DNA from: Xanthobacteraceae bacterium
GTDB taxonomy: Bacteria; Pseudomonadota; Alphaproteobacteria; Rhizobiales; Xanthobacteraceae
Length of the DNA: 64,000 bases
Direction of reading: 5' to 3'
Assembly: GCA_030041005.1 (NCBI GenBank)
Contig: JASHOR010000046.1
Span: 1-64,000, forward strand
How positions within the stretch are numbered: position 1 is the first letter of the stretch; the number at the start of each line of letters is the position of its first letter. The position numbers were made by a program, and so were the translations under genes. The notes under the pieces are model-generated. The model did no database searches. It was not told where the DNA came from and saw nothing but the letters and a program-made list of their open reading frames with translations. Positions 6,717-58,610 of this stretch are shown here, one piece after another.

Positions 6717-6856
6717 GGGAGCGCTTTACCCGCCCGCCGCCACGATCGGTCGATGTGGTACGACAGGACCGGGCGGGGCACAAGGACCCGCCGACGTGAC
6801 AATCGCTGAATCCGGCGTGATCCGCCGCGGCTGCGGCGCCCCACGACCGCCAGCGC

Positions 6857-38200: not shown

Positions 38201-38220
38201 CGGCGACGACCTTTCGGATC

Positions 38221-39012
38221 TTAAATGGAGCGCGACACGCCGCCCGATATTTCGAGGCTCGCTCCGGTGATGTAGCTCGCCGCGCGAGAGCCGAGAAAGA
38301 CGATGGCGCGCGCCGGCTCATCCGGATCGCCAAGCCGGCCGAGCGGAATTTTCTTCTCCGCGGCAAGCTCACTCATCCATTCGGCGCGCGATTGCGAGCG
38401 ATTTGTCCTCGCCTCGAAGCGGCGCTGCCACTGGCCGGAATCGATCAGGCCGAGCAGCACCGAATTCACTCTGATATGGGGAGCGAATTCGCTCGCCAGC
38501 GACTTCAACAGGTTCTGTACGCCGGCGCGCGCCGCCGAGGTGCACACCATGTGCGGCTCGGGCTGCATCGCCAGCAGTGAATTGACGGCCACGATGGCCG
38601 CCCGCTCGCTCTTGCGCAAGAGCGGCAGGAACGCCCTGATCGGCAGGATCTGGCTGAAGAATTTCAGTTCCAGCTCCTGGCGCCATTGCTCGTCGGTGGT
38701 GTCGGCAAAGGCCGAGACGCGCCCTTGCCCGGCATTGTTGACGAGAAGGTCGAGGCGGCCGCCGCCCCATTGCGCGACCTTCCGCGCAAACGCCTCGACC
38801 TGTCCGCGATCGAGCACGTCGCAGCGTTCGGCCAGCAGCGTCTTGGCGTTCGGCCCGCCGAGCTGCGACACTGCGGCGCCAAGACGCGCCGCGTCGCGTC
38901 CGCAGATCGCCACCCGCGCGCCGTCGGCGAGCAGCAATCGGGCGGTCGCAAGCCCGATGCCGGAGCTGCCGCCGGTAACGACGGCGATGCTGTCGGTCAG
39001 GCCAAGGTCCAC
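38221..39012 (-). CDS. SDR-family oxidoreductase lacking the canonical Tyr-x3-Lys
   Basis: The 263-aa product starts at a GTG (39012) inside the last codons of the IclR gene. Rossmann text TGGSSGIGLATARLL and NNAGQGRVS are clear, as is the C-terminal ITGASLEISGG. At the active-site position it reads PHMVCTSAARAGVQNLLKSL, so neither the Tyr nor the Lys of the usual motif is present. A subgroup of SDRs has this HMVxTSAARAG form; their activity is uncertain. It is in the IclR-led operon. Confidence 0.85.
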   Translation of the reverse strand: MDLGLTDSIAVVTGGSSGIGLATARLLLADGARVAICGRDAARLGAAVSQLGGPNAKTLLAERCDVLDRGQVEAFARKVAQWGGGRLDLLVNNAGQGRVSAFADTTDEQWRQELELKFFSQILPIRAFLPLLRKSERAAIVAVNSLLAMQPEPHMVCTSAARAGVQNLLKSLASEFAPHIRVNSVLLGLIDSGQWQRRFEARTNRSQSRAEWMSELAAEKKIPLGRLGDPDEPARAIVFLGSRAASYITGASLEISGGVSRSI

Positions 39013-39893
39013 GATCGATCCCCGCGATTGGTTTTGGCCGGGCCCGGCGCGACCGCCGGCCGGCCGTCATGCCTTGCCGTTGCATCGGACTGCGGGCCGT
39101 TGTGCCAGCCCAGACGCAGCGATATTTCGCGCGCCGCCTCCTTGACGGCGGCGCCGATCTGCGCGCGCCGTTCGGCGCCTGCGAATTGCGCGGATTGCCC
39201 GGTCACGTTACAGGCGGCGACCGGCGTATTGGAGACGTCGAAGATCGCCGCAGCGACCGAGCTTATTCCGGCCTCGTAATTGCCGTCGCTCCAGGCGAGA
39301 CCGAGAGTACGGTCGGCGTCGAGCTGCGCGCGCAATTGCTGCGCCGTAACCGGCGTGTGCGGCGTGACCGGGCGCAAGTCAAACCCGGCGTAAAGCCGAT
39401 CGACGCGTTCGCGCGGCAAATTTGCCAGAATAATGCGGCCCATATTGGCGGCGTGGGCCGGCAGGCGGCTGCCGATTCTGATATTGCTGGCGAAGGCGTG
39501 ATCGGGGACGCGGCGCACCAGATAGACAATGTCGTGGCCGTCGAGCACCGCCAGATGCGCCGACAGCGTCAACGTTCCAGCCAGCCGCGTCAGCACCGGG
39601 ACCGCGGTCTGCACCAGATCCTCCGAGAAGAACGCCTGCGCGGTGAGCGTGATCAACCCGATGCCGATCCGCCATCCCTGACCCTCGCCGCGCGGTTCGA
39701 TGAACCGCTCGCTTTGCAGCGCGTGCAGGAGCCGCAGCAGCGTCGTTCTGTTGATGCCGAGTTCGCGCGCGCTGCGCGCCATGTTGGACACGCTGTCGCC
39801 TTCGGCGATGCGGCGCAGGAGCCGCGCCACGCGTTGCACCGGCGGCGACGCGTAAAGATCGTCCTTCGATTCTGCTGCGGCAGCTTCAGGCAT
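38997..39893 (-). CDS. IclR-family transcriptional regulator
   Basis: From ATG 39893 (MPEAAAAESKDDLYASPPVQ) the product is 298 aa, with an N-terminal winged helix (about residues 20-85, SVSNMARSARELGINRTTLL) and the IclR effector domain (GWRIGIGLITLTAQAF, AHAANMGRIILANL and GLAWSDGNYEAGISSVAAAI). It overlaps both neighbours (8 bases with the hydrolase gene, 16 with the SDR gene), so it is co-transcribed with the pathway it probably controls. The 298 aa include an unusual 35-residue C-terminal extension. A palindrome upstream of the operon (40749-40762) is a candidate target. Confidence 0.92.
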   Translation of the reverse strand: MPEAAAAESKDDLYASPPVQRVARLLRRIAEGDSVSNMARSARELGINRTTLLRLLHALQSERFIEPRGEGQGWRIGIGLITLTAQAFFSEDLVQTAVPVLTRLAGTLTLSAHLAVLDGHDIVYLVRRVPDHAFASNIRIGSRLPAHAANMGRIILANLPRERVDRLYAGFDLRPVTPHTPVTAQQLRAQLDADRTLGLAWSDGNYEAGISSVAAAIFDVSNTPVAACNVTGQSAQFAGAERRAQIGAAVKEAAREISLRLGWHNGPQSDATARHDGRPAVAPGPAKTNRGDRSWTLA

Positions 39894-40722
39894 GCGCCAT
39901 GGTCCTTGCGATTCGGGCAAGAAGGACGGCAACGGTCGAAGGCTCTTCCTGCGGCAGCGCATGCCCGGCATTGGCAATCTCGTGCAAACCCGCCGCATGA
40001 GGCAGCGCCGCGTGCACCGCGGCGGCGCCGGCCGGCGGCGTGATCTGGTCGAGCTTACCGACGGCAACAATAGTGGGCACGCCGATGAGCTTCGCGTCCG
40101 ACAGGAGCCGTCCGGCGCCGAGCGCATGGACGGCCTGAATGTACCCACCAGGATGCACCGTGGCCATCGCCCGCTCGACGGCGGCCACGACATCAGGCCG
40201 CGCGTTCGGATCGCCGACCAGGCGCGGCGCGCGCTTTTTGGCGAACGCCGCCGGACCAACCTCCTCGATTTCATCGATGCGCGCCTGCACGCCGGGCGGC
40301 AACGTGCCTCCCGGCTCAACGCCATAGCCGGGTGCCGGCGAAATCAGCGCCAGCGCGTTGACGCGATCCGGATAACGGGCGGCAAAGCTCGCCGCAAACA
40401 GCGCGCCGAGCGAATGCCCGGCAAGCGTAACCTGCGGCGTCTGCAGCGCATCGAGAAATTGCGCCAGCGCGTCCGCATAGGCGCGCGGCGTCGGCATCGC
40501 GACGGCAAGCGGCACCGATTGGCCATAACCCGGCGCATCCCAGGCAATGACATTCAGCGGTGCCGGCAGCGCCGCGATCAGGGTCGAAAAGCTGTCGGCG
40601 CGACTGCCGATGCCGTGCAGCAACACCAGCGTCGGCGCCGCTGTGTCGCCGACGCGGCGCAGAAAGCCGACGCCGGCAGCGAAGTCGCGCGTCAGGTCCC
40701 CGACCATGTCTTCGCCCGCCAT
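39886..40722 (-). CDS. Alpha/beta hydrolase, first gene of the IclR-associated operon
   Basis: The 278-aa product shows TLVLLHGIGSRADSFS (oxyanion strand), the nucleophile elbow LAGHSLGALFAA, an acid residue near VAVGKLDQITPP and catalytic His in IANAGHALPQEEP. The layout is that of carboxylic-ester or C-C bond hydrolases (MhpC/PcaD group). It is the promoter-proximal gene of a six-gene leftward operon with IclR, SDR, TPP enzyme, small HTH protein and Rieske oxygenase, consistent with degradation of an aromatic or alicyclic acid. Confidence 0.9.
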   Translation of the reverse strand: MAGEDMVGDLTRDFAAGVGFLRRVGDTAAPTLVLLHGIGSRADSFSTLIAALPAPLNVIAWDAPGYGQSVPLAVAMPTPRAYADALAQFLDALQTPQVTLAGHSLGALFAASFAARYPDRVNALALISPAPGYGVEPGGTLPPGVQARIDEIEEVGPAAFAKKRAPRLVGDPNARPDVVAAVERAMATVHPGGYIQAVHALGAGRLLSDAKLIGVPTIVAVGKLDQITPPAGAAAVHAALPHAAGLHEIANAGHALPQEEPSTVAVLLARIARTMAHA

Positions 40723-40748
40723 GACTGCGCCTGACGTCTATCGCTTAT

Positions 40749-40762
40749 GTTCATATTTGAAC
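40749..40762. promoter_or_regulatory. Candidate IclR-type operator
   Basis: GTTCATATTTGAAC is a perfect 5-base-arm palindrome in an AT-rich stretch 27 bases before the operon's first start codon, with a further GTTC half-site at 40768-40771. IclR proteins commonly bind GTTC/GAAC palindromes of similar size. Binding by the regulator encoded at 38997 is inferred. Confidence 0.5.
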
Positions 40763-40941
40763 TATATGTTCTCACACTAGGCATTCTGGGGACTGTTGTC
40801 AAACCGCGCAAGCTCTTCGATGGAGCGCGCCGGGGGCTGCAACGACAGTCGCTCTTCCGACCGTTGCAATCGGCGGCGCGCTCCGACTCTTGGCGAGCTA
40901 CTCTTGGCGAGCGATTCCAATCAGGCGGGATATACTCCGGC

Positions 40942-41009
40942 GTGGCGGTTCAGAAGTCCGCACCATGATGGCCGCGACGCTCGCCGTGCGGAGTTCTGAG
41001 CCAAAGCCA
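40942..41009 (+). repeat. Bimodular repeat, module 1 only (diverged)
   Basis: GTGGCGGTTCAGAAGTCCGC ... GCGGAGTTCTGAGCCAAAGCCA matches module 1 of the dispersed repeat, with a changed central part. It ends just before the cupin gene, whose ATG at 41009 (not the start chosen) is formed by the repeat. Confidence 0.75.
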
Positions 41010-41026
41010 TGGACAGGAGAGCGAAC

Positions 41027-41560
41027 ATGGACGACGTCACCCGCAAAGAGCCGAAGCGATCCTGGGATCGCGCGGAAGGCATGAGCTACGAAGCCTGGAT
41101 GAACAGCCGGGTGGCGCGCGTCGCCGACCGCGCATATGACTGGAACGCGCTCAAGTTTCAGGCCGACTACGATCCAAAATACCGCCGGGCGCAGAAGCGC
41201 TTCATCGGGACCGGCGGCACCGGCGTCGCGAGCGATTCTTCGGTGGTGCCGGCGGAACATTTCACGCTGTCCAACATGATCATGCCGCCCGGCGCGGAAG
41301 GGCCGATGCATCTGCATGTCGATGCCGAGGAAGTCTTCTTTGTATTGCGCGGCAAGATCAAGGTGATGACCGAGAAAGACGGCGAGCGCTGGGAGACCGT
41401 GCTCGGCGAACGCGATTGCATCTCGGTGCCGCCGGGCGTCTATCGCGGCGAAGTGAATATCGGCGAGGAAGAGGCGATCATGATGGTCATGATCGGTTCG
41501 CCGAAGCCGATCACGCCGACCTACCCGCCCGATCATCCGCTGGCGAAGATCAAACGCTAG
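41027..41560 (+). CDS. Cupin-domain protein
   Basis: The ATG at 41027 has a good ribosome site (AGGAG at 41015-41019), giving 177 aa; an earlier ATG at 41009 lies in the adjacent repeat. The single cupin barrel (about residues 65-150) shows the metal motif GPMHLHVDAEEVFFVLRG (H-x-H...E) and the second motif VPPGVYRGEVN, in which the usual His is not obvious. It probably binds a metal and a small carboxylated ligand; the exact reaction is unknown. It stands alone between two repeats. Confidence 0.85.
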   Translation: MDDVTRKEPKRSWDRAEGMSYEAWMNSRVARVADRAYDWNALKFQADYDPKYRRAQKRFIGTGGTGVASDSSVVPAEHFTLSNMIMPPGAEGPMHLHVDAEEVFFVLRGKIKVMTEKDGERWETVLGERDCISVPPGVYRGEVNIGEEEAIMMVMIGSPKPITPTYPPDHPLAKIKR

Positions 41561-41720
41561 TGCTCCGATTCCAACATTCGCATCCCTTTTTGGCACGCCC
41601 TCGCGCGAATGTTGGAATCAAAGGACCACGAGCAACTATAAGTGCTGGTGGAGCTTTTGGATTTGACATTCGCTTGATGAAAAAGTGGCTTGCGGGTAGC
41701 GAATGTCAAATCCGCTCCAC
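41559..41720 (-). repeat. Diverged second subtype of the bimodular palindromic repeat
   Basis: This 162-base element has the same architecture as the repeat at 51343-51508 but different arms. Module 2-like: CCGATTCCAACATTCGC near 41564-41580 pairs with GCGAATGTTGGAATC. Linker: AAAGGACCACGAGCAACTAT, compared with AAGGACACTGGCAACTTATT. Module 1-like: GTGGAGC...GGATTTGACATTCGC pairs with GCGAATGTCAAATCC.GCTCCAC. It starts in the stop codon of the cupin gene. Confidence 0.75.
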
Positions 41721-41780
41721 GAGGGACACCCTGCTCAGACCGAGGAGAAGCTGGACGCATACGGAAAGAGACCAGAGCGC

Positions 41781-42254
41781 TTAATGGCAATGACCGTGGT
41801 CTATCCGGCACACGATATTTGAAACGTGATCTCCTTCGCTCACGAGCGACGCGTTGCCCTTAAAGATCTGACCACGGTCGGCGCCTTTTGTTACCTGCGT
41901 CCAGTACTGATGGCCGTCGCCGTACCATGCGGAGCAGGTGCGGAACAGCGTATGCCTCGTTTCCCCCCGGCGCCGCCACCGCGCCCACGTACAAATCTCG
42001 TTATCTTTGACGCGCCATTGCCCTCTGGCGAAATATTTGTGGTTCTTCGTATAACCGATGAGACTGCCGTCGGGCGCAAAATATTGTTCGACGGTGCCGT
42101 AATCGATCGTCTTGTCCGAGTAGAGCAATGTGGTCTCGCTCGTACTCAGCGCGTGGACATCCGCCGGCAACTGCGGTTCGGCACGCGCCGCGTCCGGCCC
42201 GGCTGCAATGACGACGATACCGGCGAGCACATATATCAGCGCAGCGATCTTCAT
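41781..42254 (-). CDS. Secreted DUF995-like protein
   Basis: The start at 42254 (MKIAALIYVLAGIVVIAAGP) has a GGAGAGG ribosome site and gives 157 aa with a signal peptide of about 23 residues. The mature part resembles DUF995: LSTSETTLLYSDKTIDYGTV, QYFAPDGSLIGYTKNHKYFA and GQWRVKDNEICTWARW. Four Cys could form two disulfides. DUF995 proteins are small periplasmic proteins of unknown function in Rhizobiales. No operon partners are evident. Confidence 0.7.
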   Translation of the reverse strand: MKIAALIYVLAGIVVIAAGPDAARAEPQLPADVHALSTSETTLLYSDKTIDYGTVEQYFAPDGSLIGYTKNHKYFARGQWRVKDNEICTWARWRRRGETRHTLFRTCSAWYGDGHQYWTQVTKGADRGQIFKGNASLVSEGDHVSNIVCRIDHGHCH

Positions 42255-42663
42255 GATGCACCTCTCCAGTTGTCGTCGGCGACGGCCGGCGTGCATCCTC
42301 GCCGACGACGGCAATATCTCGTTCGCGAAAAGGCAAGCCGGTTTGCCGACGTCACGCATCATATGTCGCGATCCCCGTTTGAGCAGCACGACAGACGAGC
42401 TAGTACCAACGGCGCCTCGTATCTCCCGCCGGGCTAGCTCACCATGGGTAATGGCGCCTGACCGAAATAGTCGGTCAACTTCCGATCGCGGCAGCTAGAA
42501 AGAATGCTGAACGTCGGCCCCAATGCCGGCAGCATCGACGGCACCAGATACTCACGGTGCCGCCAAACCAGAGTCCGGTTACCTTTCGGCGAATTTGTCT
42601 CGACCACGACTTCGTTTGCGACAGCGATCAGTAGCGGGCCTGACGGCTTTCTTCGACGTAACG
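42255..42663. other. Spacer before the PqqD/ATP-grasp cassette
   Basis: This spacer separates the leftward DUF995-like gene from the rightward cassette and should carry the cassette promoter, which I cannot place. I looked here for a small precursor peptide gene that a PqqD-like partner would serve and found none with a ribosome site and convincing composition. Open frames on both strands run into the cassette's coding DNA and look like shadows. Confidence 0.4.
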
Positions 42664-43149
42664 ATGGAGCAGACAATGTACGTTGCCGGAAATCTCGCAG
42701 AAAAAATCGAGATTGTTCATTCTGGACGGGCGGGCGCAAACGGCGGGCGCAAATCGCCAAGCAAGAAGGCGCCACGAAGCAAATCGCCGAGGAACGAGTG
42801 GCCGGGGACGGCGGCCGATGCAGAGCCAGCCGTCAATGGTCATCCGACCGCCGCCGTCGGCTTGACGAACCTGAAAATCATTCGGAATCGTTTCGTCTTC
42901 GACACGCAAACGGGGAAGTTTCACCGCATCAGCGAAACAGCGGCTTTTCTTCTGATCGAGCTGCAGCGGCAGACTCCCGTTGCCGATCTGGTGATGCGCT
43001 ATGCCGAACGCTATGCCGTTCCGCATCCGATCGCCGAGCGGGACCTCGAATTGTTCTTGAACGACCTTGCCGTCGCCGGCGGCCCGACATACGGCCACCC
43101 GGCGCCGCCCCAGGCAGACCGGGAGCGTCTGAGCGCGCGGCCGGTCTAG
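42664..43149 (+). CDS. PqqD-like protein with long basic N-terminal extension
   Basis: The 161-aa product (ATG 42664; an ATG at 42676 is also possible) has a Lys/Arg-rich, probably disordered first 70 residues. A PqqD-like domain follows (about 75-145): IIRNRFVFDTQTGKFHRISE, TAAFLLIELQRQTPVADLVM and IAERDLELFLNDLAVAGG. PqqD-like domains usually bind a peptide leader and present it to a modifying enzyme. It is 20 bases ahead of an ATP-grasp ligase gene. No precursor peptide gene is seen nearby, so the client may be encoded elsewhere or the extension itself may matter. Confidence 0.75.
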   Translation: MEQTMYVAGNLAEKIEIVHSGRAGANGGRKSPSKKAPRSKSPRNEWPGTAADAEPAVNGHPTAAVGLTNLKIIRNRFVFDTQTGKFHRISETAAFLLIELQRQTPVADLVMRYAERYAVPHPIAERDLELFLNDLAVAGGPTYGHPAPPQADRERLSARPV

Positions 43150-43169
43150 CGCGGCCCGGCGGCAGAGCG

Positions 43170-44273
43170 ATGTCAGCGCGAATGCGCGAGCGTCCGGTCA
43201 TCGCGGTCAGCGGCCTGCACCGCGGGGACAACCCGCAGCCCGGCCCGGCCGTCATTCGCAGCGTCCGGCGCGTCTATCGTTCCGCGACGGTGCTGGGCCT
43301 TTCGTACGATCCGTTGGAAAGCGGCCTGTTCAGCACCGATCTCGACCGGGTCGACGCAGCGTTTTCGTTGCCGCTTCCCGCCATGGGCGCCAACGCGCTG
43401 CTCGATCGTCTCGAACAGATTCGGCAGACCAACGCGATCGATCTCATCGTGCCCTGCCTCGATGCGGAAATTCCCAACTACTTTGCGCTGCTGAAAGAGC
43501 TAAGGCGCCGAGGGATCGAAATCGTGCTGCCGACGGCGGCGGCCTTCGAGCGACGGAGCAAGGAGAAGCTGACGACGCTTGGGCTCGAAGCGGGCGTCGC
43601 GGTGCCGCGTACGTTGATGGCTCCTGATTTGGCGGCGGCCTACCGGGCTGGCGAGCAGATCGGCTATCCGCTGTTCCTCAAGGGCCGACTCTACGAGGCG
43701 CTCAGGCTGACATCCCCCGCCGAGATCGCAAATGCGTTTCACTATCTGACGTCGGTTTGGGGCGGTCCGGTCATGGTTCAAGAACCGATAGTCGGCGAGG
43801 AGTACGACGTGACCGGTCTCGGCGACGGAACGGGCGGCTTGTCCGGCTTTTGCTCTATTCGCAAAATGATGTTGACAAAAACCGGCAAGGCTTACGCCGG
43901 CATCGTCATTTCCGATCCGACATTGGACGTCCTGGTCGGCCGCATCGTCAAGGCACTGTCCTGGAACGGACCGTTTGAGATCGAATTCATCAGGGGGCCG
44001 CAGGGCTATGCCTTGATCGAGATGAATCCACGATTTCCAGCCTGGATCGACTTCCCGTCGCAGATCGGCTGCAACCTGCCGGCCGCCCTTGTACAGCGGG
44101 CTGTAGGAGGAGCGGCTGGCGCGCCCGGCCGCTGCGAGGCGGGCCGGATGTTCGTGCGGCACGCGGTCGACCTGGTCGGCGACATCGCTGAACTTGCGGA
44201 ATTATCGGTGACCGGAGCCCGCAGCCGCAATGCGCGCACGGCCATCGCTGAAGTCACGGAGCTCGCGAGATGA
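43170..44273 (+). CDS. ATP-grasp ligase (carbamoyl-phosphate-synthase-like)
   Basis: From ATG 43170 (MSARMRERPVIAVSGLHRGD) the product is 367 aa. An N-terminal Rossmann-like pre-ATP-grasp domain (about 8-110) is followed by an ATP-grasp domain: lid/ATP region YPLFLKGRLYEALRLTSPAE, VMVQEPIVGEEYDVTGLG, and the Mg-binding end YALIEMNPRFPAWID (E-x-N-P-R). Such enzymes activate a carboxylate as acyl phosphate and join it to an amine or other nucleophile. It overlaps the PLP decarboxylase gene by 4 bases, so the two products are made together. Confidence 0.85.
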   Translation: MSARMRERPVIAVSGLHRGDNPQPGPAVIRSVRRVYRSATVLGLSYDPLESGLFSTDLDRVDAAFSLPLPAMGANALLDRLEQIRQTNAIDLIVPCLDAEIPNYFALLKELRRRGIEIVLPTAAAFERRSKEKLTTLGLEAGVAVPRTLMAPDLAAAYRAGEQIGYPLFLKGRLYEALRLTSPAEIANAFHYLTSVWGGPVMVQEPIVGEEYDVTGLGDGTGGLSGFCSIRKMMLTKTGKAYAGIVISDPTLDVLVGRIVKALSWNGPFEIEFIRGPQGYALIEMNPRFPAWIDFPSQIGCNLPAALVQRAVGGAAGAPGRCEAGRMFVRHAVDLVGDIAELAELSVTGARSRNARTAIAEVTELAR

Positions 44274-45691
44274 CCCTCCAATATTCGCCTCCGATAATCA
44301 CGAGCGAACTGGGCCGTCACACCGACGCTCTCATCAACCGAAATTCGCTCAGCCAAACCCACCGAACGCCTGCTTGCGATCGCATAGAAGGCGTAGCTGT
44401 CGAAGATCTCGTCGAAAAATTCGGATCACCCCTGTTTGTTTTTTCCGAACGCGTATTGCGCAGCGCTGCCCGGCGCGCACGCGAGGCCTTCGAGTCGCTC
44501 TATCGCGAGACCCTGTTCGCCTGGTCCTACAAAACCAATTACCTCCGGGCGATCTGCAACATATTTCACGACGAGGGCTGGATTGCGGAGGTGGTCTCTG
44601 ATTTCGAATATCAGAAGGCCGAGAAGGCAGGCATCCGCCCGAGCGACATCATCTATAACGGCCCAAACAAGTCTCGGCATAGTCTCGAACGCGCCCTCGC
44701 TCAAGGAGCGGTCGTCCAGATCGACAATTGGGACGAGTTGGGACTGATCGAGGAGATAGCGGGCACCTTGAAGCACGCCGCCAGGGTCGGAATCCGCGTC
44801 TGGATGGACACGGGTCATGCCCCGGTCTGGTCGAAGTTCGGCTTCGCGCTCGCGAACGGCGAGGCGGCCCGTGCGGCGCTGCGCGTCGTGGCCAATCCGC
44901 GGCTCATGCTGCACTCGCTCCACACCCATATCGGCACGTATTTGCTCGATCCCGTCGCCTACGCGGTGGCTGCCGATCGGCTGCTGGCGATCAGGGAAAT
45001 GGTCCATGGCCAAACCGGCCACCTCGTGCCCTGCATCAATCTCGGCGGCGGCTTCCCTTCCAACAGTCTGTTGCACGGCATGGTCGGGCCGGCGGAGCTC
45101 GTGGTACCCCCGGTCGAGCGCTATGCCGAAGCGATCGCCGGCGTATTGAACACTCTGCCGCGAAGCCGGCGTCCGCAATTGCGCCTGGAGACGGGCCGCC
45201 ATCTGGTGGACGATGCCGGCTGGCTGATCACTTCCGTCGTCGCCGTCAAAGGTGCCGACCGCACCGCAACCGCGGGCGCTTCGGTGCACGATCTCAAGAC
45301 CGGTTTTGTGCTCGGCGAGCACAGCCGAGGCAGCTACGTCGTCGATGCCGGCGTGAATCTGCTCTACACGGCGACATGGTATCGCATCGGCGTATCTCCG
45401 GCGCGGGCAGTGGATATGCCGCCCAACGTCGTGCGGCTCTACGGCTGCCTTTGCATGAACATCGACGTCATCCGCGAGTCGGTCGAATTGCCGCCTCTCG
45501 AGATCGGCGATCGACTCGTGCTGCACCCGGTCGGCGCCTACAACCTCACCCAGTCGATGCAATTCATCGCGTTCCGGCCCGCCGTCGTGCTGATCGGCTC
45601 CGACGGCGACGTCGAGGCGATCCGTCGCCGCGAGGAACTTGCCGACATCGAACAGGGGGAACTGGTCCCGGCGCGTCTGATGCGGCGATAA
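44270..45691 (+). CDS. PLP-dependent decarboxylase of the DapDC/ornithine decarboxylase fold (type III)
   Basis: The 473-aa product resembles LysA-type decarboxylases. The PLP-binding Lys is in FAWSYKTNYLRAIC, the PLP-phosphate Gly-rich loop is LGGGFPSN, HTHIGTYLLDPV matches the HxHIGS region, and LYGCLCMNIDVI stands where family members have C-E-S-x-D. The changed CESxD block points to a substrate other than diaminopimelate. It may decarboxylate an amino acid before or after ligation by the preceding ATP-grasp enzyme. Start ATG overlaps the upstream stop as ATGA. Confidence 0.85.
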   Translation: MTLQYSPPIITSELGRHTDALINRNSLSQTHRTPACDRIEGVAVEDLVEKFGSPLFVFSERVLRSAARRAREAFESLYRETLFAWSYKTNYLRAICNIFHDEGWIAEVVSDFEYQKAEKAGIRPSDIIYNGPNKSRHSLERALAQGAVVQIDNWDELGLIEEIAGTLKHAARVGIRVWMDTGHAPVWSKFGFALANGEAARAALRVVANPRLMLHSLHTHIGTYLLDPVAYAVAADRLLAIREMVHGQTGHLVPCINLGGGFPSNSLLHGMVGPAELVVPPVERYAEAIAGVLNTLPRSRRPQLRLETGRHLVDDAGWLITSVVAVKGADRTATAGASVHDLKTGFVLGEHSRGSYVVDAGVNLLYTATWYRIGVSPARAVDMPPNVVRLYGCLCMNIDVIRESVELPPLEIGDRLVLHPVGAYNLTQSMQFIAFRPAVVLIGSDGDVEAIRRREELADIEQGELVPARLMRR

Positions 45692-47901
45692 TGTCTTCCC
45701 CGCGGGCCGGATTGGGGTTGCGCGCCGACAATGCGGTGCATGGCGCGCTGCGTATTCTCGATCATATCTGCCGCGCGTTCGGCAACGTCCTGATGATCGG
45801 CTCGCCCCTGGGCGGTCTCGTCATCATTGCCGCGCTTGCGATCGAGCCTCTCAACCTCATCGGCGGACTGCTCGGTCTATCGATGGCCGAGGTCTGCCTC
45901 TACAGCGTCGGTCAACGCGACGGACCGCGGGCCAAGAACGCGCGCGCCAACGCAATTCTGGCAGGGGTCGCCGCAGCGTGGCTCGTGGCGCCGTCGCAGC
46001 AGCCGTTTTACGCGGCGGCCATTCTGATCGCGTCCGTCAGCAGCGCCGCCGCGTTTCTGTCGACGGCGTTGACGCGAGCGCTCGCCAACACGCCGGTCCC
46101 CGCAATGTCGCTCGCCTTCATCATCACTTTCGCCGTTTTGCTCACGCTGTTGCCCTACTGGGCGGCGCACGCGGCCTTCAGCCAACCGTTCTGGCCGTAC
46201 CCCGTGGGTATTTCGGGCTGGCTCGACTCGTTCCTGCGGTCGCTCGGCATCATCCTGTTCTCGCCTCGCCCCGAGACCGGCGCCGCGGTGTTCGCGGCGC
46301 TGCTGTTCTGGTCGCCCGCGATGGCGATCAGCGGCGTCGTCGGCTGGATCGCCGGCATTTTGACCGCCGAAGTCCTTGCGGATTTCGGGTTCAACTGGCT
46401 TTGGCTGATCGCCGCCGACAACAGTTTCATTACTGCGATGTTGTTGGGCGCCGTCTTCCATCTGCCAAGTCGCTCGACCTTGGCGACCTCCGCGCTCGCC
46501 GGGATTGGCGCCGCAGTGCTCGCTCTTGCCGTACAGACGGCCTTCCGCGGCACGGGTTGGGCGTTTCAACCCCTACCGGCTTTGTTGACCACTTGGATCG
46601 CGTTGCTGGCGCTCTCCGGACGCTCGGCGCGGCATCCGATCGTCGCGACCCCCAGTTTCGATCTTGCGCCTGAGCAGGCATGGCAACAAGCGAGGCTGTT
46701 CGAGGCCCGCTTCGGCGCGCCTGCACCGCTGGTGGCCGTTCCGCTCGCCGGCGTGGTCGCCGTCAGTCAGGGCTTCGATGGGCCGATCAGTCATCGGGGA
46801 CCGTGGCGCCACGGAATCGATTTCGAAATGCCGATCAAGCCGGGGTTGGAGGCCGGCTCGTTCGGTGCGCCCGTCTATTGCCCAACGGACGGCACAGTAG
46901 AGTCTCTTACCGACAACGTCCCCGATAACCCCCTTGGAGTGAGCAATTACAGTCAGAATTGGGGCAACTACATCGTGATTCGCATGGATCAGGGCCTCTG
47001 GCTGATGCTGGCCCACCTGGCGAAAGACTCGATCAGGGTTGCGGCCGGGCAGCGCGTCCGCACCGGCCAAGTTCTCGCCGCGGTCGGCAATTCCGGCCGC
47101 AGTCCCACGCCGCATTTGCACCTTCACGTCCAAACGGGTCCCATGCCCGGCGCGCCGACCATATTCTTCAACCTGGCCAACTACCTGGGAGACTCATCCA
47201 GCGCCATGACGGGAGCGATTTGGTTGCGGGCCGGTGTGCCGAAGACCGGCACGTTTGTCCGCGCGGCGCTCAAGGTCCCGGCAACGTTTCGTAATGCGGC
47301 CGGACTTGCACCGGGGGTCGGACTGTGGCGCATAAGACTGACCGACGAGATGGCGGCACCGTTCTGGGTATCTGAACCCACCGAACAATTGTCGACGACG
47401 TTGGACCCGGCCGGGAACCACTGTGTTGTAGACAATCGCCATGCGCGGCTCGTGCTGCATGCCGATGTCGATAGCCTGCGCGTCTACGAACTGAGCGGCC
47501 GACCGGGACTAGTGTTGCGATTGTGGTCCATGGCTTTGCCTGTAGTGCCCTATTGCGCCACGCCCGGCCTGTGCTGGTTCGACCGGATCGATCCGCCTCC
47601 AAGCACCCTGCTTGAGCGCATTGCGCTGCCGGCGGCGCCGTATCTGGCACGACCGCTGGCCGACATGCGTTTGCGCTGCACCGCGATTGCGGCCGAGGCG
47701 CGCGAAGAAATAATCGTGGAAGCGGAACCGGTACACCAAAAGGCCGGCTTTCCCACGCGCATCGTCGCTCGGCTGGCCGGGGTCATCGGACCGGTGGCAT
47801 TCGAGGCATACTTCGAGGAAGGTTCGGTTCTGGCCGAACTCATCTCCTTCGCTCCGGTTTCCTCGCCGGAAAACGCAGGCGAGCAACGCGCGCCCTCGTG
47901 A
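45691..47901 (+). CDS. Fusion of urea-transporter-like membrane domain and M23 metallopeptidase domain
   Basis: The 736-aa product starts at 45691, sharing one base with the upstream stop codon. Residues about 15-310 form a ten-helix membrane domain like the bacterial urea transporter family (GNVLMIGSPLGGLVIIAALA region). Residues about 360-500 form an M23/LytM peptidase domain with HGIDFEM (H-x3-D zinc motif), APVYCPTDGTVESL and SPTPHLHLHVQ (H-x-H). The C-terminal ~230 residues are beta-rich and unassigned. M23 enzymes cut peptidoglycan cross-links or small peptides outside the cytoplasm. The fusion suggests coupling of hydrolysis to uptake or release of a small neutral product. Confidence 0.8.
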   Translation: MSSPRAGLGLRADNAVHGALRILDHICRAFGNVLMIGSPLGGLVIIAALAIEPLNLIGGLLGLSMAEVCLYSVGQRDGPRAKNARANAILAGVAAAWLVAPSQQPFYAAAILIASVSSAAAFLSTALTRALANTPVPAMSLAFIITFAVLLTLLPYWAAHAAFSQPFWPYPVGISGWLDSFLRSLGIILFSPRPETGAAVFAALLFWSPAMAISGVVGWIAGILTAEVLADFGFNWLWLIAADNSFITAMLLGAVFHLPSRSTLATSALAGIGAAVLALAVQTAFRGTGWAFQPLPALLTTWIALLALSGRSARHPIVATPSFDLAPEQAWQQARLFEARFGAPAPLVAVPLAGVVAVSQGFDGPISHRGPWRHGIDFEMPIKPGLEAGSFGAPVYCPTDGTVESLTDNVPDNPLGVSNYSQNWGNYIVIRMDQGLWLMLAHLAKDSIRVAAGQRVRTGQVLAAVGNSGRSPTPHLHLHVQTGPMPGAPTIFFNLANYLGDSSSAMTGAIWLRAGVPKTGTFVRAALKVPATFRNAAGLAPGVGLWRIRLTDEMAAPFWVSEPTEQLSTTLDPAGNHCVVDNRHARLVLHADVDSLRVYELSGRPGLVLRLWSMALPVVPYCATPGLCWFDRIDPPPSTLLERIALPAAPYLARPLADMRLRCTAIAAEAREEIIVEAEPVHQKAGFPTRIVARLAGVIGPVAFEAYFEEGSVLAELISFAPVSSPENAGEQRAPS

Positions 47902-48026
47902 GAAAAATCGCTCCGCGCAAGCGCGTCGTCACATTGGCATCGACGCGCAAATAGTCGCCGCGTCGCTGACCACGCCCCACCGGACGATCCGGGCCGCGGC
48001 TTGATACATGAGGGATGACGATGTGG

Positions 48027-48914
48027 TCACCCGCGCACGCCGACCTTGTCCTGCGTTCTGGTCTCGAAATCGCCGGCGCCATGTCGTTCGTGCAACTGCC
48101 CTTCAGGCGGCCCGCTCACACGATTGACCATTCGCCCGCGCTTGACGGCCGGGCGTTCGCCGATTTCTTTCGTCCAGCGCGTCAGGTTCTTGTATTCGTG
48201 CGTCTGCAGGAACTGGCGCGGGTCGTTGTAGGAGGCGCCGTTCAACATGCCGTTGCCGTACCACGGCCAGATCGCCATGTCGGCGATGGTATATTCGTCG
48301 CCGGCGACGAACCGGTTGTTCGCAAGCTGCCGGTCGAGCACGTCGAGCTGGCGCTTCACTTCCATCGCGAAACGGTCGATGGCGTATTTGATCTTCACCG
48401 GCGCATAGGCATAGAAGTGCCCGAAGCCGCCGCCGACATAGGGCGTTGAACCCATCTGCCAGAACAGCCAGTTCAGCGCCTCGGTGCGCCTGCCGCGGCC
48501 CTTTGGCAGGAAGGCGCCGAATTTATCCGCCAGATAGAGCAGGATCGAACCGGATTCGAACACGCGCAGCGGCGGCTGCTCGCTATAGTCCATGAGCGCC
48601 GGGATTTTGGAATTCGGGTTCACCCCGACAAATCCGCTGCCAAACTGGTTGCCCTCACCGATCCGGATGAGCCAGGCGTCATATTCCGCTCCGCTGTGAC
48701 CGGCGGCCAGCAATTCCTCCAGCATGATCGTCACCTTGACGCCATTGGGCGTCGCCAGCGAATAAAGCTGCAGCGGATGCCTTCCGCGCGGCAACTCCTT
48801 CTCATGCGTCGCGCCCGCGATAGGGCGATTGGTGTGGCTATAGCGCCAGTTGGGACTGTCGTTCTTCTCCCAGACCCAGACGTCCGGCGGCGTGTATTGC
48901 GGTGTGTCAGTCAT
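48027..48914 (-). CDS. yghU: Glutathione-dependent disulfide-bond oxidoreductase, YghU-type GST
   Basis: From 48914 (MTDTPQYTPPDVWVWEKNDS) the product is 295 aa. It matches YghU, with the thioredoxin-like GST N-domain (HPLQLYSLATPNGVKVTIML, VNPNSKIPALMDYS, FESGSILLYLADKFG) preceded by the characteristic ~45-residue extension. The helical C-domain contains NRFVAGDEYTIADMAIWPWY. YghU binds two glutathiones and reduces disulfides. It faces the end of the UT/M23 fusion gene across a ~125-base spacer, with no evident functional link. Confidence 0.92.
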   Translation of the reverse strand: MTDTPQYTPPDVWVWEKNDSPNWRYSHTNRPIAGATHEKELPRGRHPLQLYSLATPNGVKVTIMLEELLAAGHSGAEYDAWLIRIGEGNQFGSGFVGVNPNSKIPALMDYSEQPPLRVFESGSILLYLADKFGAFLPKGRGRRTEALNWLFWQMGSTPYVGGGFGHFYAYAPVKIKYAIDRFAMEVKRQLDVLDRQLANNRFVAGDEYTIADMAIWPWYGNGMLNGASYNDPRQFLQTHEYKNLTRWTKEIGERPAVKRGRMVNRVSGPPEGQLHERHGAGDFETRTQDKVGVRG

Positions 48915-49122
48915 GTTGGGGCTCGCGTTTGTCGCTCGATAGCTCGGCCGAATGGATAGAGTGGCGAGCGCGGGCTGTCCAATCATGGTTGCGCGCAACG
49001 GCTCGCATTGAAGGGACCGGCCGTGCGGCGCCGGATCGCGGGCGTAGTGGCGTGCTGATCGCCGACCACATCGAGCCGCGCCGGGAAGGCGGCCCAGTCA
49101 CTCCGGAGGGTGACCCAACAGC

Positions 49123-49365
49123 CTACCAAAGCCGTTTTCTGGCGAAGGCATGGCCCGAACCGGACTTTAAATAGCGCTCAAAAGTCTGGGCTTTTCGAGA
49201 ATCGGAGAATGCGATGTAAGTCACTAATTTCCACGGAAGATACTTAGAGGTGTGCGGAGAGTCTCCTGCATTATGTTCGGCAAGGCGCCGTTTGAGATTC
49301 GACGTAATGCCGACATACCGTTGGCCTTCGATCGTCTTGCTTTGCAGCATGTAGACATAGTGCAT
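49123..49365 (-). CDS. Small GIY-YIG nuclease-domain protein
   Basis: The 80-aa product begins MHYVYMLQSK with a GGAGGAGGG ribosome site. It consists of one GIY-YIG domain: HYVYML and YVGITSNLKRRLAEHNAG carry the two signature strands, including the catalytic Arg, and a Glu follows in QTFERYLKSG. Stand-alone GIY-YIG proteins of this kind are common in Rhizobiales and often lie near tRNAs. It begins 94 bases after the 3' end of tRNA-Lys on the same strand, separated by a long hairpin. Confidence 0.88.
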   Translation of the reverse strand: MHYVYMLQSKTIEGQRYVGITSNLKRRLAEHNAGDSPHTSKYLPWKLVTYIAFSDSRKAQTFERYLKSGSGHAFARKRLW

Positions 49366-49398
49366 TCGGCGGCCCTCCTCCGCCAAGGCTTCGGAGGG

Positions 49399-49458
49399 CA
49401 TCCTGCTTCGCGCTTCACTGGGAAGCAATCCTGCGAAGCGCATCAGCGCGAAGCAGGA

Positions 49459-49460
<2 letters not shown>
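49399..49460. repeat. 16-bp inverted repeat touching the tRNA-Lys 3' end
   Basis: CATCCTGCTTCGCGCT (49399-49414) pairs perfectly with AGCGCGAAGCAGGATG (49445-49460). The second arm ends inside the CCA of the tRNA gene (49459-49461). The structure fills the gap between the tRNA and the GIY-YIG gene and may act as terminator/processing signal or as a mobile palindrome. Confidence 0.8.
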
Positions 49461-49534
<74 letters not shown>

Positions 49535-50111
49535 TAACCGAGGAATTTCCGTGGGTTAGGTGGAAGGCCGTTCTCGGTGGGGCCCCTCCGGGGCACCGAG
49601 AGCCGCGTACCCGCGCGGCTCGGTCGATATAGCGGCCGGAGGCTCGTCGGGCAAGGTTTCCTGCTCGATTCGCACTGCCCAAAGGGAGCGGCTGATGAAG
49701 GATCTCGGCTACGCGCGTCGCGGCATCGAGCCGGCGGGTGAATGTCGGTTAACATTCGCGTGAGAGGCCGCCGAAGTGGGATGCGGATGTAAGAAGCGGA
49801 CCTCTAGTGTCCCGATTCCGAACTTCGCATCATTATGCGGGCACCCTCGTTTGCGAACTTCGGAACCGAAGGACACTGGCAACTTATTGACCTCGTGTGG
49901 CTTTGGTTCAGAAATCCGCATGACGAGGGCGCGGCAGGAATGATGCGGACTTCGAAACCGCCACACCAGGTCGTTCGTAAGTTCGTCGCCCTGGACCGGC
50001 GGGCCGAGCTGCAAATCTGAACACCCAATGCCGTTCCGGCTGGTGAAGCTGCCGTCTTCGCACCGTCAGATATCCGCCACCTCTCGGCGTGAGCGAAGGC
50101 GTAAGCGCGCG
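49535..50111. other. Spacer between tRNA-Lys and metK, largely a palindromic repeat
   Basis: Just upstream of the tRNA there is a hairpin (TCTCGGTG 49572-49579 with CACCGAGA 49594-49601). From 49806 to 49967 lies a full copy of the bimodular repeat, listed separately. I find no gene in the remaining sequence, and this is where the DNA changes from typical high GC to the lower-GC glycyl radical module. Confidence 0.5.
49806..49967 (-). repeat. Bimodular palindromic repeat, full copy (inverted orientation)
   Basis: Module 2 comes first (CGATTCCGAACTTCGCA pairing with TGCGAACTTCGGAACCG), then the linker AAGGACACTGGCAACTTATT, then module 1 (GTGTGGCTTTGGTTCAGAA... to ...TTCGAAACCGCCACAC). It is the reverse complement of the arrangement at 26685 and 51343 and lies between tRNA-Lys and metK. 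Confidence 0.9.
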
Positions 50112-51293
50112 TCAAGAACTCCTGATTTCGGCGAGGAGCTCGTCGCCTGCGTCAAGACGCTCCCACGCGAACTCAGGTCTGCCGAAATGGCCATACGCGG
50201 CGGTCTTGGCGTAAATGGGTGTTCTAAGTTTCAGGTGGTCGATCATTCCTGCCGGTGAAAGTGGGAACACCCTCCTTACCAGTGTCGACAGTGCTTCGTC
50301 CGAAACCTTCCCGGTTTCGTAGCTGTTCACCATCACGGAGACAGGATCGACCAGACCGATGCAGTAGCCGAGCTGAACAAGGCACTCATCGGCCAGACCG
50401 ACTGCCACGATATTTTTCGCGATATAGCGCGCCATGTATCCAGCAGAGCGATCGACTTTCGTGGGATCTTTTCCGCTGAACGCTCCACCGCCGTGGACCG
50501 ACCAGCCGCCATAGGTATCGACGATGATCTTGCGTCCTGTCAGGCCCGTATCGCACTGCGGACCGCTCACGAGGAACTTCCCCGTGCCATTGACAGTAAT
50601 CTTTGTGTTTTTGTCGACTAGACCGCCGACGACGGGTAGCACGACCTTCTCGACGATCTCCCGCTTCGCTTCCTCAGTAGTAAATCGCCCGTCGGGCGTG
50701 ATCACCTCATCGGTGTGAGATGCCGCGATCACAACATAGTCGATCCGCACTGGTTTACCTTCGCGATACTCGACCGTAACCTGGGTCTTTCCGTCCGGCC
50801 CCAGATACGGCAACACGTTTCTCTTGCGCGCGGCCGCAAGCTGCATCGCCAGCTTGTGGGCCAGCATGATCGGCAGCGGCATAAGCTCTGCCGTCTGACG
50901 GCAGGCATATCCGAACATCAGCCCTTGATCGCCTGCGCCGATCCTACCGCCCGCCTTCGTTACGCCAAGGTCAATGTCGGGGGACTGAGGATGAATCGTT
51001 CGGATTACGGCAGCGGTGTTCACGTCGAAGCCGTATTTCGGCGATGTGTAGCCAATCTCATTCCCGACGTCGCGAACGACATTGGAAACGTCGAAAAGCG
51101 CTTTGGTCGTGATCTCGCCACCGACGAGCAACAATCCCATTGTTACAAAGGTATTGCACGCCACGCGCGACATGGGGTCGCGTCTCAGGCACTCGTCGAG
51201 CACCGCATCGGAGATCTGGTCGCAAAACTTGTCCGGATGTCCCTCCGTCACGGACTCTGATGTAAAGAACATGTTCCTATTATACATAGACAT
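50112..51293 (-). CDS. metK: S-adenosylmethionine synthetase
   Basis: The 393-aa product is a full-length Met[21 protein letters not shown] at the N-terminus, [12 protein letters not shown] (ATP-binding loop), [20 protein letters not shown] and [19 protein letters not shown]. It makes SAM from methionine and ATP. It lies downstream of the GRE activase, ferredoxin and reductase genes on the same strand, and looks like a dedicated or second copy serving the SAM-consuming activase. Base composition is lower in GC than the genes before 48 kb. The ribosome site is weak. Confidence 0.96.
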
Positions 51294-51342
51294 TGGATCT
51301 TATGCCTGCGTGGTTTTGGACCGTGGCGTAGCTAATCGAGAA

Positions 51343-51508
51343 CTAGTGTGGCGGTTTCGAAGTCCGCATCATTCCTGCCGCGACCTCGTCATGCGGAGTT
51401 CCGGACCAAAGCCACACTAGATCAATAAGTTGCTAGTTTCCTTCGATTCCGAAGCTCGCAAACGAGGGTGCCGCATAACGATGCGAGCTTCGGAAATCGG
51501 GACACTAG
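51343..51508 (+). repeat. Bimodular palindromic repeat, most complete copy, with CTAG ends
   Basis: The element runs from CTAGTGTGGCGG to GGGACACTAG, so its ends CTAGTGT/ACACTAG are inverted repeats. Module 1 occupies the first ~75 bases (module arms as at 26685) and module 2 the last ~70 (CGATTCCGAAGCTCGCA pairing with TGCGAGCTTCGGAAATCG). It separates fdxA from metK within the GRE gene set. Confidence 0.9.
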
Positions 51509-51536
51509 CTGCCTTGACGGCTCCGTTCATGCCTCT

Positions 51537-51872
51537 TCATCCCTCGGGAGGCCGGGGATCGAAGTACTTCTGGAACTTGTTTGGAACGCCTGCCCATTTA
51601 TCGGCATCGGTGGGCCGATCCTTCTTCTTCGTGATCCTGGGCCAGCGTTTGGTAAAATCTGCATTGACCGCGAGCCACTGCTCGAGATCAGGTTTGGAGT
51701 CAGGCTGAATTGCGTGCACCGGACACACGGGCCGACAAGCGTCGCAGTCGATGCACTCATCGGGATCGATGACGAGCATATTCACGCCTTCGTGGAAGCA
51801 ATTGACCGGACACGGCGTCACGCAGTCCATGTACTTGCACTTCACACAGCTTTCCGTGACTACATAGGTCAT
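51537..51872 (-). CDS. fdxA: Seven-iron type ferredoxin FdxA
   Basis: The 111-aa protein has the FdxA pattern: Cys9, Cys12, Cys17, Cys21 and Cys25 in the first half ([17 protein letters not shown]) and Cys40, 43, 46 and 50 in [11 protein letters not shown]. These hold one 3Fe-4S and one 4Fe-4S cluster. A C-terminal tail of about 55 residues is typical of the alphaproteobacterial form. It is 24 bases after the ferredoxin reductase gene and is the likely low-potential electron donor to the GRE activase. Confidence 0.93.
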
Positions 51873-51896
51873 ACTTTGCCCTCGGAACCAGTGCCG

Positions 51897-52775
51897 TCAG
51901 TAGTGGCCCGGTAGGGAAGGGGTGGCTTGCTTCCTCTGAGTCGCGCTCGCAGGCGACGCGAACCAATAGCGCTCGACGTGAATCTGCCCAGGTACATCGC
52001 CTGCGCATTCCCGGAAGTCTTCGTCAACCAGCAGGGCGGCCATGTCGTCGATCATGTGAGGGCTCCCGCACAAAAAGGCATGCGTGTCCTCTGGCGTGGG
52101 CCTGCTGCCCCATGCCTGCGCAAGTACCGGTCCGTTCCAGACGTCCTGCACATGTCCGATTGCTCGCCGCCACGGCACCGGCTCGTCCGCGGGACGACTG
52201 ATAACCGGCACGTAGGTCACGTTGCTCCGTAAGTGCTGCATGGTCATCAGGATTGAGCGATAGCCGAGGTCCCATGAGTTTCGCACACCATGGAGAACCG
52301 CGACCCGGCGTTGGCTGCCGAAACGAAGGTGGGTACTGAGCATGCTGACGTACGGTGCGAGACCTGTTCCTGTTGCGATCAGCGCGACGTTGGCATCGTC
52401 GGGGACATCATGGAAGGTGAAGGCACCAGTGATGCGATCGCTGAGGTTGACGCGATCGCCGATCTTCAACGCGAACAGCCGCGGGCTCAATACACCGTGC
52501 GGAACCAGGTGGATGAAGAACTCCACGAATTCCTTGTTCACGGGAGACGAAGCGATGCAATATGCGCGTTGGATCAGCTTGTACGGATCTGCAGGAGTTA
52601 CTTCCCGTTCCGCGAGATCGCGGCGGGGAGCGGTTCCGAACAAACCGACCGTCGTGTATTGGCCTGGGATGAATTCCGGAAAGGTCCAGCCGTCTGGCAC
52701 CACCTGTAGCACCATCAGCCACGGCGATATGCGGTTCACAAGCGTCACGACAGCGTTGAGGTCGCTCGCTGACAT
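51897..52775 (-). CDS. Ferredoxin--NADP(+) reductase (Fpr-like)
   Basis: The 292-aa flavoprotein has the FAD-binding segment QRAYCIASSPVNKEF, which matches RxYS/C in bacterial Fpr. It also has a phosphate/FAD loop around GVLSPRLFALKIGD, the NADP domain IATGTGLAPYVSML, and the C-terminal FLCGSPHMIDDM. It should pass electrons from NADPH to the ferredoxin encoded next. It follows the GRE activase gene by 8 bases, placing the reductase in the activase's supply line. Its C-terminus is longer than in E. coli Fpr. Confidence 0.9.
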   Translation of the reverse strand: MSASDLNAVVTLVNRISPWLMVLQVVPDGWTFPEFIPGQYTTVGLFGTAPRRDLAEREVTPADPYKLIQRAYCIASSPVNKEFVEFFIHLVPHGVLSPRLFALKIGDRVNLSDRITGAFTFHDVPDDANVALIATGTGLAPYVSMLSTHLRFGSQRRVAVLHGVRNSWDLGYRSILMTMQHLRSNVTYVPVISRPADEPVPWRRAIGHVQDVWNGPVLAQAWGSRPTPEDTHAFLCGSPHMIDDMAALLVDEDFRECAGDVPGQIHVERYWFASPASATQRKQATPSLPGHY

Positions 52776-58438: not shown

Positions 58439-58610
58439 TCGATTCCTCCCTTTAGTCCTTGCAGTGCTCACGGCCAGTCGAGCGAGCGAGATCACCGGTA
58501 AAACCTACACCTACCCCATACCCCCTGAACCATTCGCGGCTGACAATCAGGCGCGTTGGAGTTGAAGCCTCGACCGTCGTGAATTGACGATCAACCGCGC
58601 TCGGCAATGC

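Follow-up and report, generated by a model that had tools for sequence, protein, structure and literature searches.

The question raised by positions 42,664 to 47,901 of the window, by which we mean the whole 64,000-nucleotide stretch analysed (Xanthobacteraceae bacterium, contig JASHOR010000046.1 of assembly GCA_030041005.1), is what is made by four adjoining genes, encoding a PqqD-family protein, an ATP-grasp ligase, a pyridoxal 5'-phosphate (PLP)-dependent decarboxylase and a protein in which a urea transporter (UT) fold is fused to an M23 peptidase-like domain (UT-M23). The cassette is apparently a member of a widespread biosynthetic operon for which no description was found in the literature searched. 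The reading that we favour, at about even chances, is that the PqqD protein is a recognition element of the type that serves ribosomally synthesized and post-translationally modified peptides (RiPPs), i.e. a RiPP recognition element (RRE), which docks a leader built into the decarboxylase, with ligation then decarboxylation following, and handling of the product by UT-M23.

The RRE would bind the [Y/W]xxPx[I/L/V] arm on the cassette's own decarboxylase, so that a leader built into an enzyme would assemble a complex. The ATP-grasp enzyme would join a carboxylate to an amino group, giving an amide, and the decarboxylase would then strip the α-carboxylate from the ligated conjugate, much as N-citrylornithine decarboxylase does on the way to rhizoferrin and BtrK on the way to butirosin. 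What results, either the amide of a decarboxylated amino acid or a peptide conjugate, might bind to the M23-like domain, or be cut by it, at the inner membrane face and pass the UT-like channel; in many lineages tetratricopeptide repeat (TPR) and barrel-like proteins may carry it further. Docking, reaction order, substrate, topology and export are what we infer from a gene set whose composition, order, co-occurrence, arm motif and conserved catalytic residues are observed. A more specific form of the proposal, in which an RRE acting on an enzyme-borne leader brings ligase and decarboxylase together in a complex that is precursor-less or self-carrying and that supplies a UT-type channel fused to an M23-like domain, in some twenty phyla, is advanced tentatively and seems to us somewhat doubtful. 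Were it correct, RRE systems could organize enzymes rather than substrates, and RiPP genome mining, which seeks a precursor beside an RRE, would miss or misfile a family with an enzyme-borne motif. Because the operon occurs across many phyla, with vent lineages, iron and sulfur cyclers and cultivated species among its hosts, a widely distributed metabolite would be directly testable.

The first-pass annotation of the window had described four coupled genes at spacings of +20, -4 and -1 bases; the open reading frame (ORF) coordinates agree, and its gene types are confirmed by Pfam, NCBIfam and structure as PqqD, ATP-grasp (diverged), PLP decarboxylase and UT plus Peptidase_M23. When a class sample of 385 genomes was queried with UT-M23, with the two best candidates per genome scored, both parts of the fusion were matched in one other genome (G035). 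A two-row UT-M23 profile run on a phylum sample of 398 genomes gave matches in 41 at an E value of 1e-20; 35 of these, the window's own included, lie at or below 1e-50, the level taken to denote a fusion (G591 being so counted though its contig holds the C-terminal half only), and the other six cover the M23 part only. G035 and the 34 other phylum-sample genomes thus give 35 loci, the window excluded, of which 29 hold all four genes together and 28 hold them in the same order and strand. The objection, set beforehand, that the genes might rarely co-occur elsewhere fails, because they co-occur widely. Four of the six incomplete loci (L079, L108, L109 and L111) are truncated by contig ends, their first detected gene starting no more than 93 bases from the beginning of the contig.

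A second set, anchored on the decarboxylase, comprises the best 80 of at least 575 relatives from a scan of the decarboxylase alignment against 84,980 named genomes. With the cassette's own profiles, the fetched flanks contain the decarboxylase in all 80 loci, the ATP-grasp ligase in 78, UT-M23 in 75 and PqqD in 74; the set is complete in 70 loci and ordered in 67, and several of the ten incomplete ones sit at contig ends. Going by record title, these loci span 22 named phyla, with one locus unplaced, and cultured hosts include Thermodesulfatator autotrophicus and Chthoniobacter flavus. Median intergenic gaps across loci are -4, -4 and +3 or +4 bases, reckoned from longest-ORF starts. Pairwise distances of the decarboxylase, ATP-grasp and UT-M23 proteins are correlated (r = 0.91-0.94; 93 loci and the window), in part through shared species history. 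By the locus counts, the co-occurrence of the cassette genes is more than chance. No functional description of this gene set was found in the literature searched; the ATP-grasp amidoligase survey of Iyer et al. (2009) may touch on a neighbourhood of this kind. PMC9088363, which surfaced for ATP-grasp with PqqD, concerns pyrroloquinoline quinone genes instead.

The feature that carries the favoured reading is the N terminus of the decarboxylase, which has about 36 residues ahead of the catalytic domain. Of 112 decarboxylase loci listed, those without a recognizable catalytic anchor or with fewer than 38 residues upstream of it were dropped; all 105 evaluable proteins carry [YW]xxPx[LVIAFYM] within the 60 residues upstream of the anchor, Met being also allowed in last place. 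The form [YWF]xxPx[ILVM] is present in 94 of 96 arms, compared with 4.4 expected from shuffles, and the window's version is YSPPII, residues 5-10. The motif was not found in the first 60 residues of five paralogues, four from the window's own genome and one from L129 (the start of one of the five, the L048 ORF, is uncertain). A looser motif, sought in the first 45 ORF residues, occurs in 104/115 decarboxylases, 0/104 PqqD, 2/110 ATP-grasp, 3/102 TPR and 3/41 barrel-like proteins, and in 28/113 UT-M23 hits, where it probably reflects a UT membrane segment.

This arm matches what is reported for RREs. Most discrete lasso peptide RREs bind the consensus [Y/W]xxPx[L/V/I/A/F/Y], according to PMC13381572; YxxPxL occupies positions -17 to -12 of lasso leaders (PMC10368454); and W/Y/LxxP/L/I recognition sequences are reported to be common to RREs of several RiPP classes (PMC12710340). 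The window's PqqD domain spans residues 78-138, behind a basic N-terminal extension, with its PF05402 score of 37.3 bits set against a cut-off of 23.4. The best solved match of the cassette PqqD family profile is the lasso B1 protein TbiB1 (E 8.2e-14), followed by TfuB1. The likeness to lasso B1 proteins and their leaders thus extends to a small PqqD-family protein, the leader motif and the best Protein Data Bank (PDB) match. By contrast with lasso clusters, the cassette motif is on a decarboxylase and not a short precursor, and no precursor family was found nearby. The B2-type Transglut_core3 domain gave no match in the window's genome (95% complete), and asparagine-synthetase-like neighbours occur in only 3 of the 35 UT-anchored loci (L088, L093 and L098). 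In L088 this gene scores as AsnB (343.9 bits, cut-off 267.1); by Pfam no such cyclase is among the three flanking genes of the window's cassette that were tested, its genome not having been searched for one. The cassette PqqD probably grips the built-in leader-like arm of the decarboxylase rather than a separate peptide. As a separate observation, a PqqD-like domain is fused behind a TetR_N domain at positions 12713-13504 of L082, and similarly long PqqD ORFs in many related loci suggest regulator-RRE fusions.

The statement in the first-pass annotation that no precursor gene is visible stands in so far as no neighbouring precursor family was detected in 110 loci, though a leader motif is present, at the decarboxylase N terminus. 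A conventional RiPP pathway, in which the precursor is encoded elsewhere in the genome and the arm does no more than compete for the RRE or gate it, is improbable in our judgement. Discrete RREs normally serve precursor peptides (PMC13381572), and cassette genes can be dispersed: in an Aquificota metagenome-assembled genome (MAG; G801, locus L154) all four genes lie on four different contigs, with the decarboxylase, its arm retained, the only cassette gene along 20.8 kb of its contig (67,214 bases), the ATP-grasp gene on C20 (60,631 bases), UT-M23 on C7 (28,402) and PqqD on C8 (26,758). Against such a distant precursor, a search confined to the cassette flanks (110 loci, up to 2 kb away, same strand; 2352 ORFs of 20-110 residues) yields no family beyond a cluster of 4 loci, and the 62 other ORFs with the fuller motif in cassette loci show no family by eye.

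Alternatively, the decarboxylase arm might itself be the precursor of a self-carrying RiPP, with PqqD presenting it, the ATP-grasp and decarboxylase modifying the stretch that follows the motif, often NKFG in sequence, and final release left to the M23-like domain; this too is quite unlikely. Some M23 enzymes are glycyl endopeptidases, and by eye the arm in many lineages reads [YW]xxPx[IL]..G..NKFG, its last Gly often being residue 18 when the Tyr/Trp is residue 1. Residue 18 corresponds to the start of the lasso core if the Tyr is at -17, as given in PMC10368454. However, the residues after the motif vary, being INRNSL in the window, NPFRLG or NPQRLG in several Verrucomicrobiota and LREKKS-like in some Thermodesulfobacteriota, and the canonical M23 histidine is missing. 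Borosins, in which a RiPP core is fused to its own methyltransferase, are comparable in joining a peptide element to a tailoring enzyme; the cassette differs from them in having a leader-type motif at the N terminus of a PLP decarboxylase and a separate RRE.

Catalytic residues are conserved in both the ligase and the decarboxylase of the cassette. The window's ATP-grasp protein scores 19 bits to ATPgrasp_Ter (cut-off 29.1) and 65 bits to the PRK12767-type NCBIfam model, also below cut-off. Its AlphaFold2 model (mean predicted local distance difference test score 92.3) best matches 2pn1, with Z 30.3 and a root mean square deviation of 2.6 over 303 aligned residues. Lys171, Glu270, Glu284, Asn286 and Arg288, which we take to be catalytic, do not vary among 30 sequences, one of them the window's. 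The decarboxylase contains the N and C domains of Orn/DAP/Arg decarboxylases (Pfam 99.7 and 44.3 bits). The CESxD site ascribed to it by the first-pass annotation was a misreading, the loop in the window being CMNID. Of 113 cassette decarboxylase hits, 108 have this loop, one has CMNLD, one CMSID, and three are unmatched by the pattern; CESGD is instead the loop of a LysA-like paralogue encoded on another contig, C49. The window protein scores below the equivalog cut-offs both for LysA (206.7 bits compared with 297.9), from which it also departs in having CMNID and not CESGD, and for FslC (192.4 bits compared with 500). Against PDB entries, the family profile scores 296.6 bits with N-citrylornithine decarboxylase (7kh2), 210.6 with the best LysA and 135 with the BtrK-type 7ru7.

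The FigC residues discussed in PMC7857480 include Cys354, Met355, His357, Thr327, Thr330, Tyr331, Tyr383 and Arg387, of which His357 and Arg387 are predicted to contact citrate; in that paper the clade around FigC contains SbnH, AcsE, MccE and BtrK plus diaminopimelate decarboxylases (DAPDCs) and D-ornithine decarboxylase (D-ODC). Mapped through the alignment with a chain offset of 19, Cys354, Met355, Thr327, Tyr331 and Tyr383 are kept in the cassette enzyme as Cys395, Met396, Thr367, Tyr371 and Tyr424, whereas His357, Arg387 and Thr330 are replaced by Ile398, Gln428 and Trp370; all eight positions are invariant in 21 aligned sequences. This pattern is in keeping with an enzyme that decarboxylates a conjugate, though not a citryl conjugate. 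The resemblance to the FslA/FslC (FigA/FigC) rhizoferrin pathway would thus lie in ligation then decarboxylation of the conjugate, and in the Cys-Met-x-x-Asp and Thr/Tyr active site residues kept from FigC; the cassette differs in that its ligase is an ATP-grasp enzyme, its citrate contacts are replaced, and RRE, UT-M23 and arm are additional. In butirosin biosynthesis BtrJ and BtrK form a pair of ATP-grasp and PLP decarboxylase acting on a carrier protein. The enzyme types are the same, and BtrK and 7ru7 are among the PDB matches of the cassette decarboxylase, though the BtrK-type match is far below that to FigC, and a PqqD-like protein stands in place of the acyl carrier protein.

These similarities are also the basis of a different explanation, that the genes encode a rhizoferrin-type, small molecule metallophore-like pathway, with PqqD serving merely a structural or regulatory role and the arm contributing to dimerization or stability, which we consider unlikely. 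It is consistent with FslC/FigC being the closest decarboxylases in the PDB, with the many hosts that by name appear to be chemolithotroph or vent taxa, with copper-handling genes seen by eye near one locus (L081), and with the PqqD-TetR_N fusion and the long PqqD ORFs described above. It fits less well with the replaced citrate-binding residues or with the window's genome, where no IucA/IucC-type synthetase was matched, and it leaves unexplained why all the evaluable arms fit the consensus bound by RREs.

The fourth protein combines Pfam matches to UT (81.9 bits) and Peptidase_M23 (55.8 bits). The UT part is a clear relative of urea channels, with a family profile score of 173 bits to 3k3f and a Foldseek E value of 1e-9. 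The fold is retained, and the urea-coordinating residues are not conserved among 102 proteins: the position of dvUT Glu187 is Ala, Ser or Thr in 75 of the 102 and that of Gln24 is variable, Gln24 and Glu187 being presumably the residues that coordinate urea. In the same 102 sequences the net charge per residue, computed with no control protein, is +0.062 for the N-terminal tail, +0.058 after the UT part and -0.047 for the inter-repeat loop, and loops between UT segments alternate in sign, a few being near zero. Because these charges put both UT termini inside, the M23 domain is probably cytoplasmic, and an envelope M23 peptidase was rejected on this ground.

The M23-like domain has an atypical site. 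His368, Asp377, His442, His475 and His477 are invariant in the 102 full-length proteins, so that HxH and the Asp are kept; the canonical HxxxD histidine position, however, is Arg in 50, Gln in 26, Lys in 17, Ser in 3, Ala in 2 and Met, Ile, Asn or Cys in one each, and never His. Two standalone M23 proteins (L008 and L034) show the same displaced-His pattern. Compared with dvUT urea channels and M23/LytM proteins, the cassette protein thus keeps the UT fold and the HxH, and differs in the Glu187 position, the absent HxxxD histidine, the fusion of the domains and their co-occurrence with biosynthetic enzymes. These results bear on the possibility of peptidoglycan or amino acid recycling, in which M23 would free cell wall peptide, UT would import it and the ATP-grasp and decarboxylase would rework diaminopimelate-like amino acids. 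The LysA-like decarboxylase and the M23 homology are in keeping with such a route; with CMNID in place of CESGD, a non-canonical M23 site predicted to be cytoplasmic, and no need for an RRE, we regard it as very unlikely. For residues 495-736 of the fusion, β-rich and without a Pfam match, the confidence of the predicted structure is fair to high over most blocks. L115 (14552-16003, by eye) and L118 (14508-15989, a weak UT-M23 profile match) each have another UT-like protein immediately downstream of the cassette.

A number of observations weigh against the leader-docking reading. The docking of PqqD on the arm is putative, and the window's PqqD is diverged (19.2 bits to the NCBIfam lasso PqqD model, cut-off 70, against which the T. 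autotrophicus locus L134 scores 46.8), as is the arm outside the motif. Loci with a Tyr motif and those with a Trp motif are strongly different at some PqqD columns, but coevolution of RRE and arm could not be judged from the Tyr/Trp switch, which changed only twice on the tree. The substrate may be a free amino acid, because the FigC clade also holds DAPDC and D-ODC. Urea channels are known to pass only very small molecules, a poor fit with export of a conjugate. The co-occurrence rate in the decarboxylase-anchored set is biased upward because that set is the most similar 80, two loci (L103 and L104) hold the UT-M23 fusion without other cassette genes, their genomes (G478 and G504) giving no decarboxylase match at 1e-40, and G801 could be a mixed bin.

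Coordinates of the features discussed are collected in Table 1.

Table 1. Cassette genes and their parts, in window coordinates
Feature	Position	Strand	Basis
PqqD-family RRE-like protein, 161 residues	42664..43149	+	Pfam PF05402, 37.3 bits; family profile to TbiB1
ATP-grasp ligase, CarB/PRK12767-like	43170..44273	+	Conserved residues; AlphaFold2 model; 2pn1 match
Fold-III PLP decarboxylase, 473 residues, N-citrylornithine decarboxylase-like	44270..45691	+	Pfam; PDB 7kh2
Decarboxylase N-terminal arm, residues 1-36	44270..44377	+	Alignment; motif not seen in the first 60 residues of five paralogues
Leader-like motif Y5-S-P-P8-I-I10, fitting [Y/W]xxPx[L/V/I/A/F/Y]	44282..44299	+	Sequence; relatives
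CMNID loop, Cys395-Met-Asn-Ile-Asp399	45452..45466	+	Invariant in 21 aligned; 108/113 hits
UT-M23 fusion protein, 736 residues	45691..47901	+	Pfam; family profile; predicted structure
Urea-transporter-fold domain, residues 24-307	45760..46611	+	Pfam UT; profile to 3k3f; Foldseek
M23-like domain with displaced His	46792..47136	+	H368, D377, H442, H475 and H477 invariant in 102
C-terminal β-rich region of UT-M23 fusion, residues 495-736	47173..47898	+	No Pfam match

Genes beside the cassette in other genomes have a bearing on the role in envelope processing or export that the first-pass annotation proposed. A TPR protein of about 200 residues lies near the cassette in 63 of the best 80 decarboxylase loci and a barrel-like protein of about 300 residues, with no or weak Pfam matches, in 20; both appear by eye, from hydrophobic N termini, to be secreted. 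Neither profile matches in the 64 kb window, the rest of its genome not having been searched. The proposal survives in part: M23 processing in the envelope is doubtful, given a domain that is cytoplasmic by charge and without the HxxxD histidine, while the TPR and barrel-like genes elsewhere still suggest envelope or export involvement. Just upstream of the cassette, 12 ORFs in 11 loci (L121, L130, L133, L146, L148, L150, L153, L160, L167, L189 and L190) form a recurring same-strand family; the one protein tested, from L153, ends in a Por_Secre/FlgD-type sorting domain, and the family may possibly be a client protein or share the tail only. On an 8.5 kb contig (L093) two decarboxylase pieces flank PqqD, ATP-grasp, the asparagine-synthetase-like gene and UT-M23, as if by tandem duplication of the cassette.

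With respect to origin, 20 genomes represent the genus, and the decarboxylase was found in that of the window alone; only 8 of the 20 reach 90% completeness with contamination of 5% or less. Among the matches listed for the 19 congeners, none covers the UT part of UT-M23. The nearest relatives of the window's decarboxylase come from a Rhodoferax MAG (64% over 447 columns), from two further MAGs of proteobacteria and from Verrucomicrobiota, and the cassette was probably acquired horizontally. Spread by plasmids was rejected: plasmids gave no DNA match to the cassette, UT-M23 is matched in 87 plasmid records but in none of them over 80% of its length, and decarboxylase matches reach at most 31.1% identity among the best 30 of 202 records. 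The one such plasmid examined, pSMS3-3 of Antarctobacter heliothermus (L194, H55), carries two tandem decarboxylase-family genes annotated as hypothetical (4590-7723; 194.8 and 134.5 bits with the cassette profile), with no PqqD, ATP-grasp, UT-M23, TPR or barrel match. In the L149 genome UT-M23 is on a separate contig from ATP-grasp and PqqD, starting 403 bases from the contig end, a split that may be an assembly break.

Riboswitch regulation was rejected, a search for known elements giving only tRNA in window positions 38000-52000 and none at gathering score in seven loci, and a scan for promoters and terminators gave signals no commoner than in shuffles. Elsewhere in the window, on the minus strand, a glycyl radical enzyme (55898-58495) scores 1019.8 bits with the (2S)-3-sulfopropanediol dehydratase model (cut-off 1000), accompanied by genes at 52784-53743 and 51897-52775 for a radical S-adenosylmethionine activase and a ferredoxin reductase-like protein; the activase scores 359.9 bits compared with the cut-off of 430 for the matching activase model, and is above the general glycyl radical activase cut-off.

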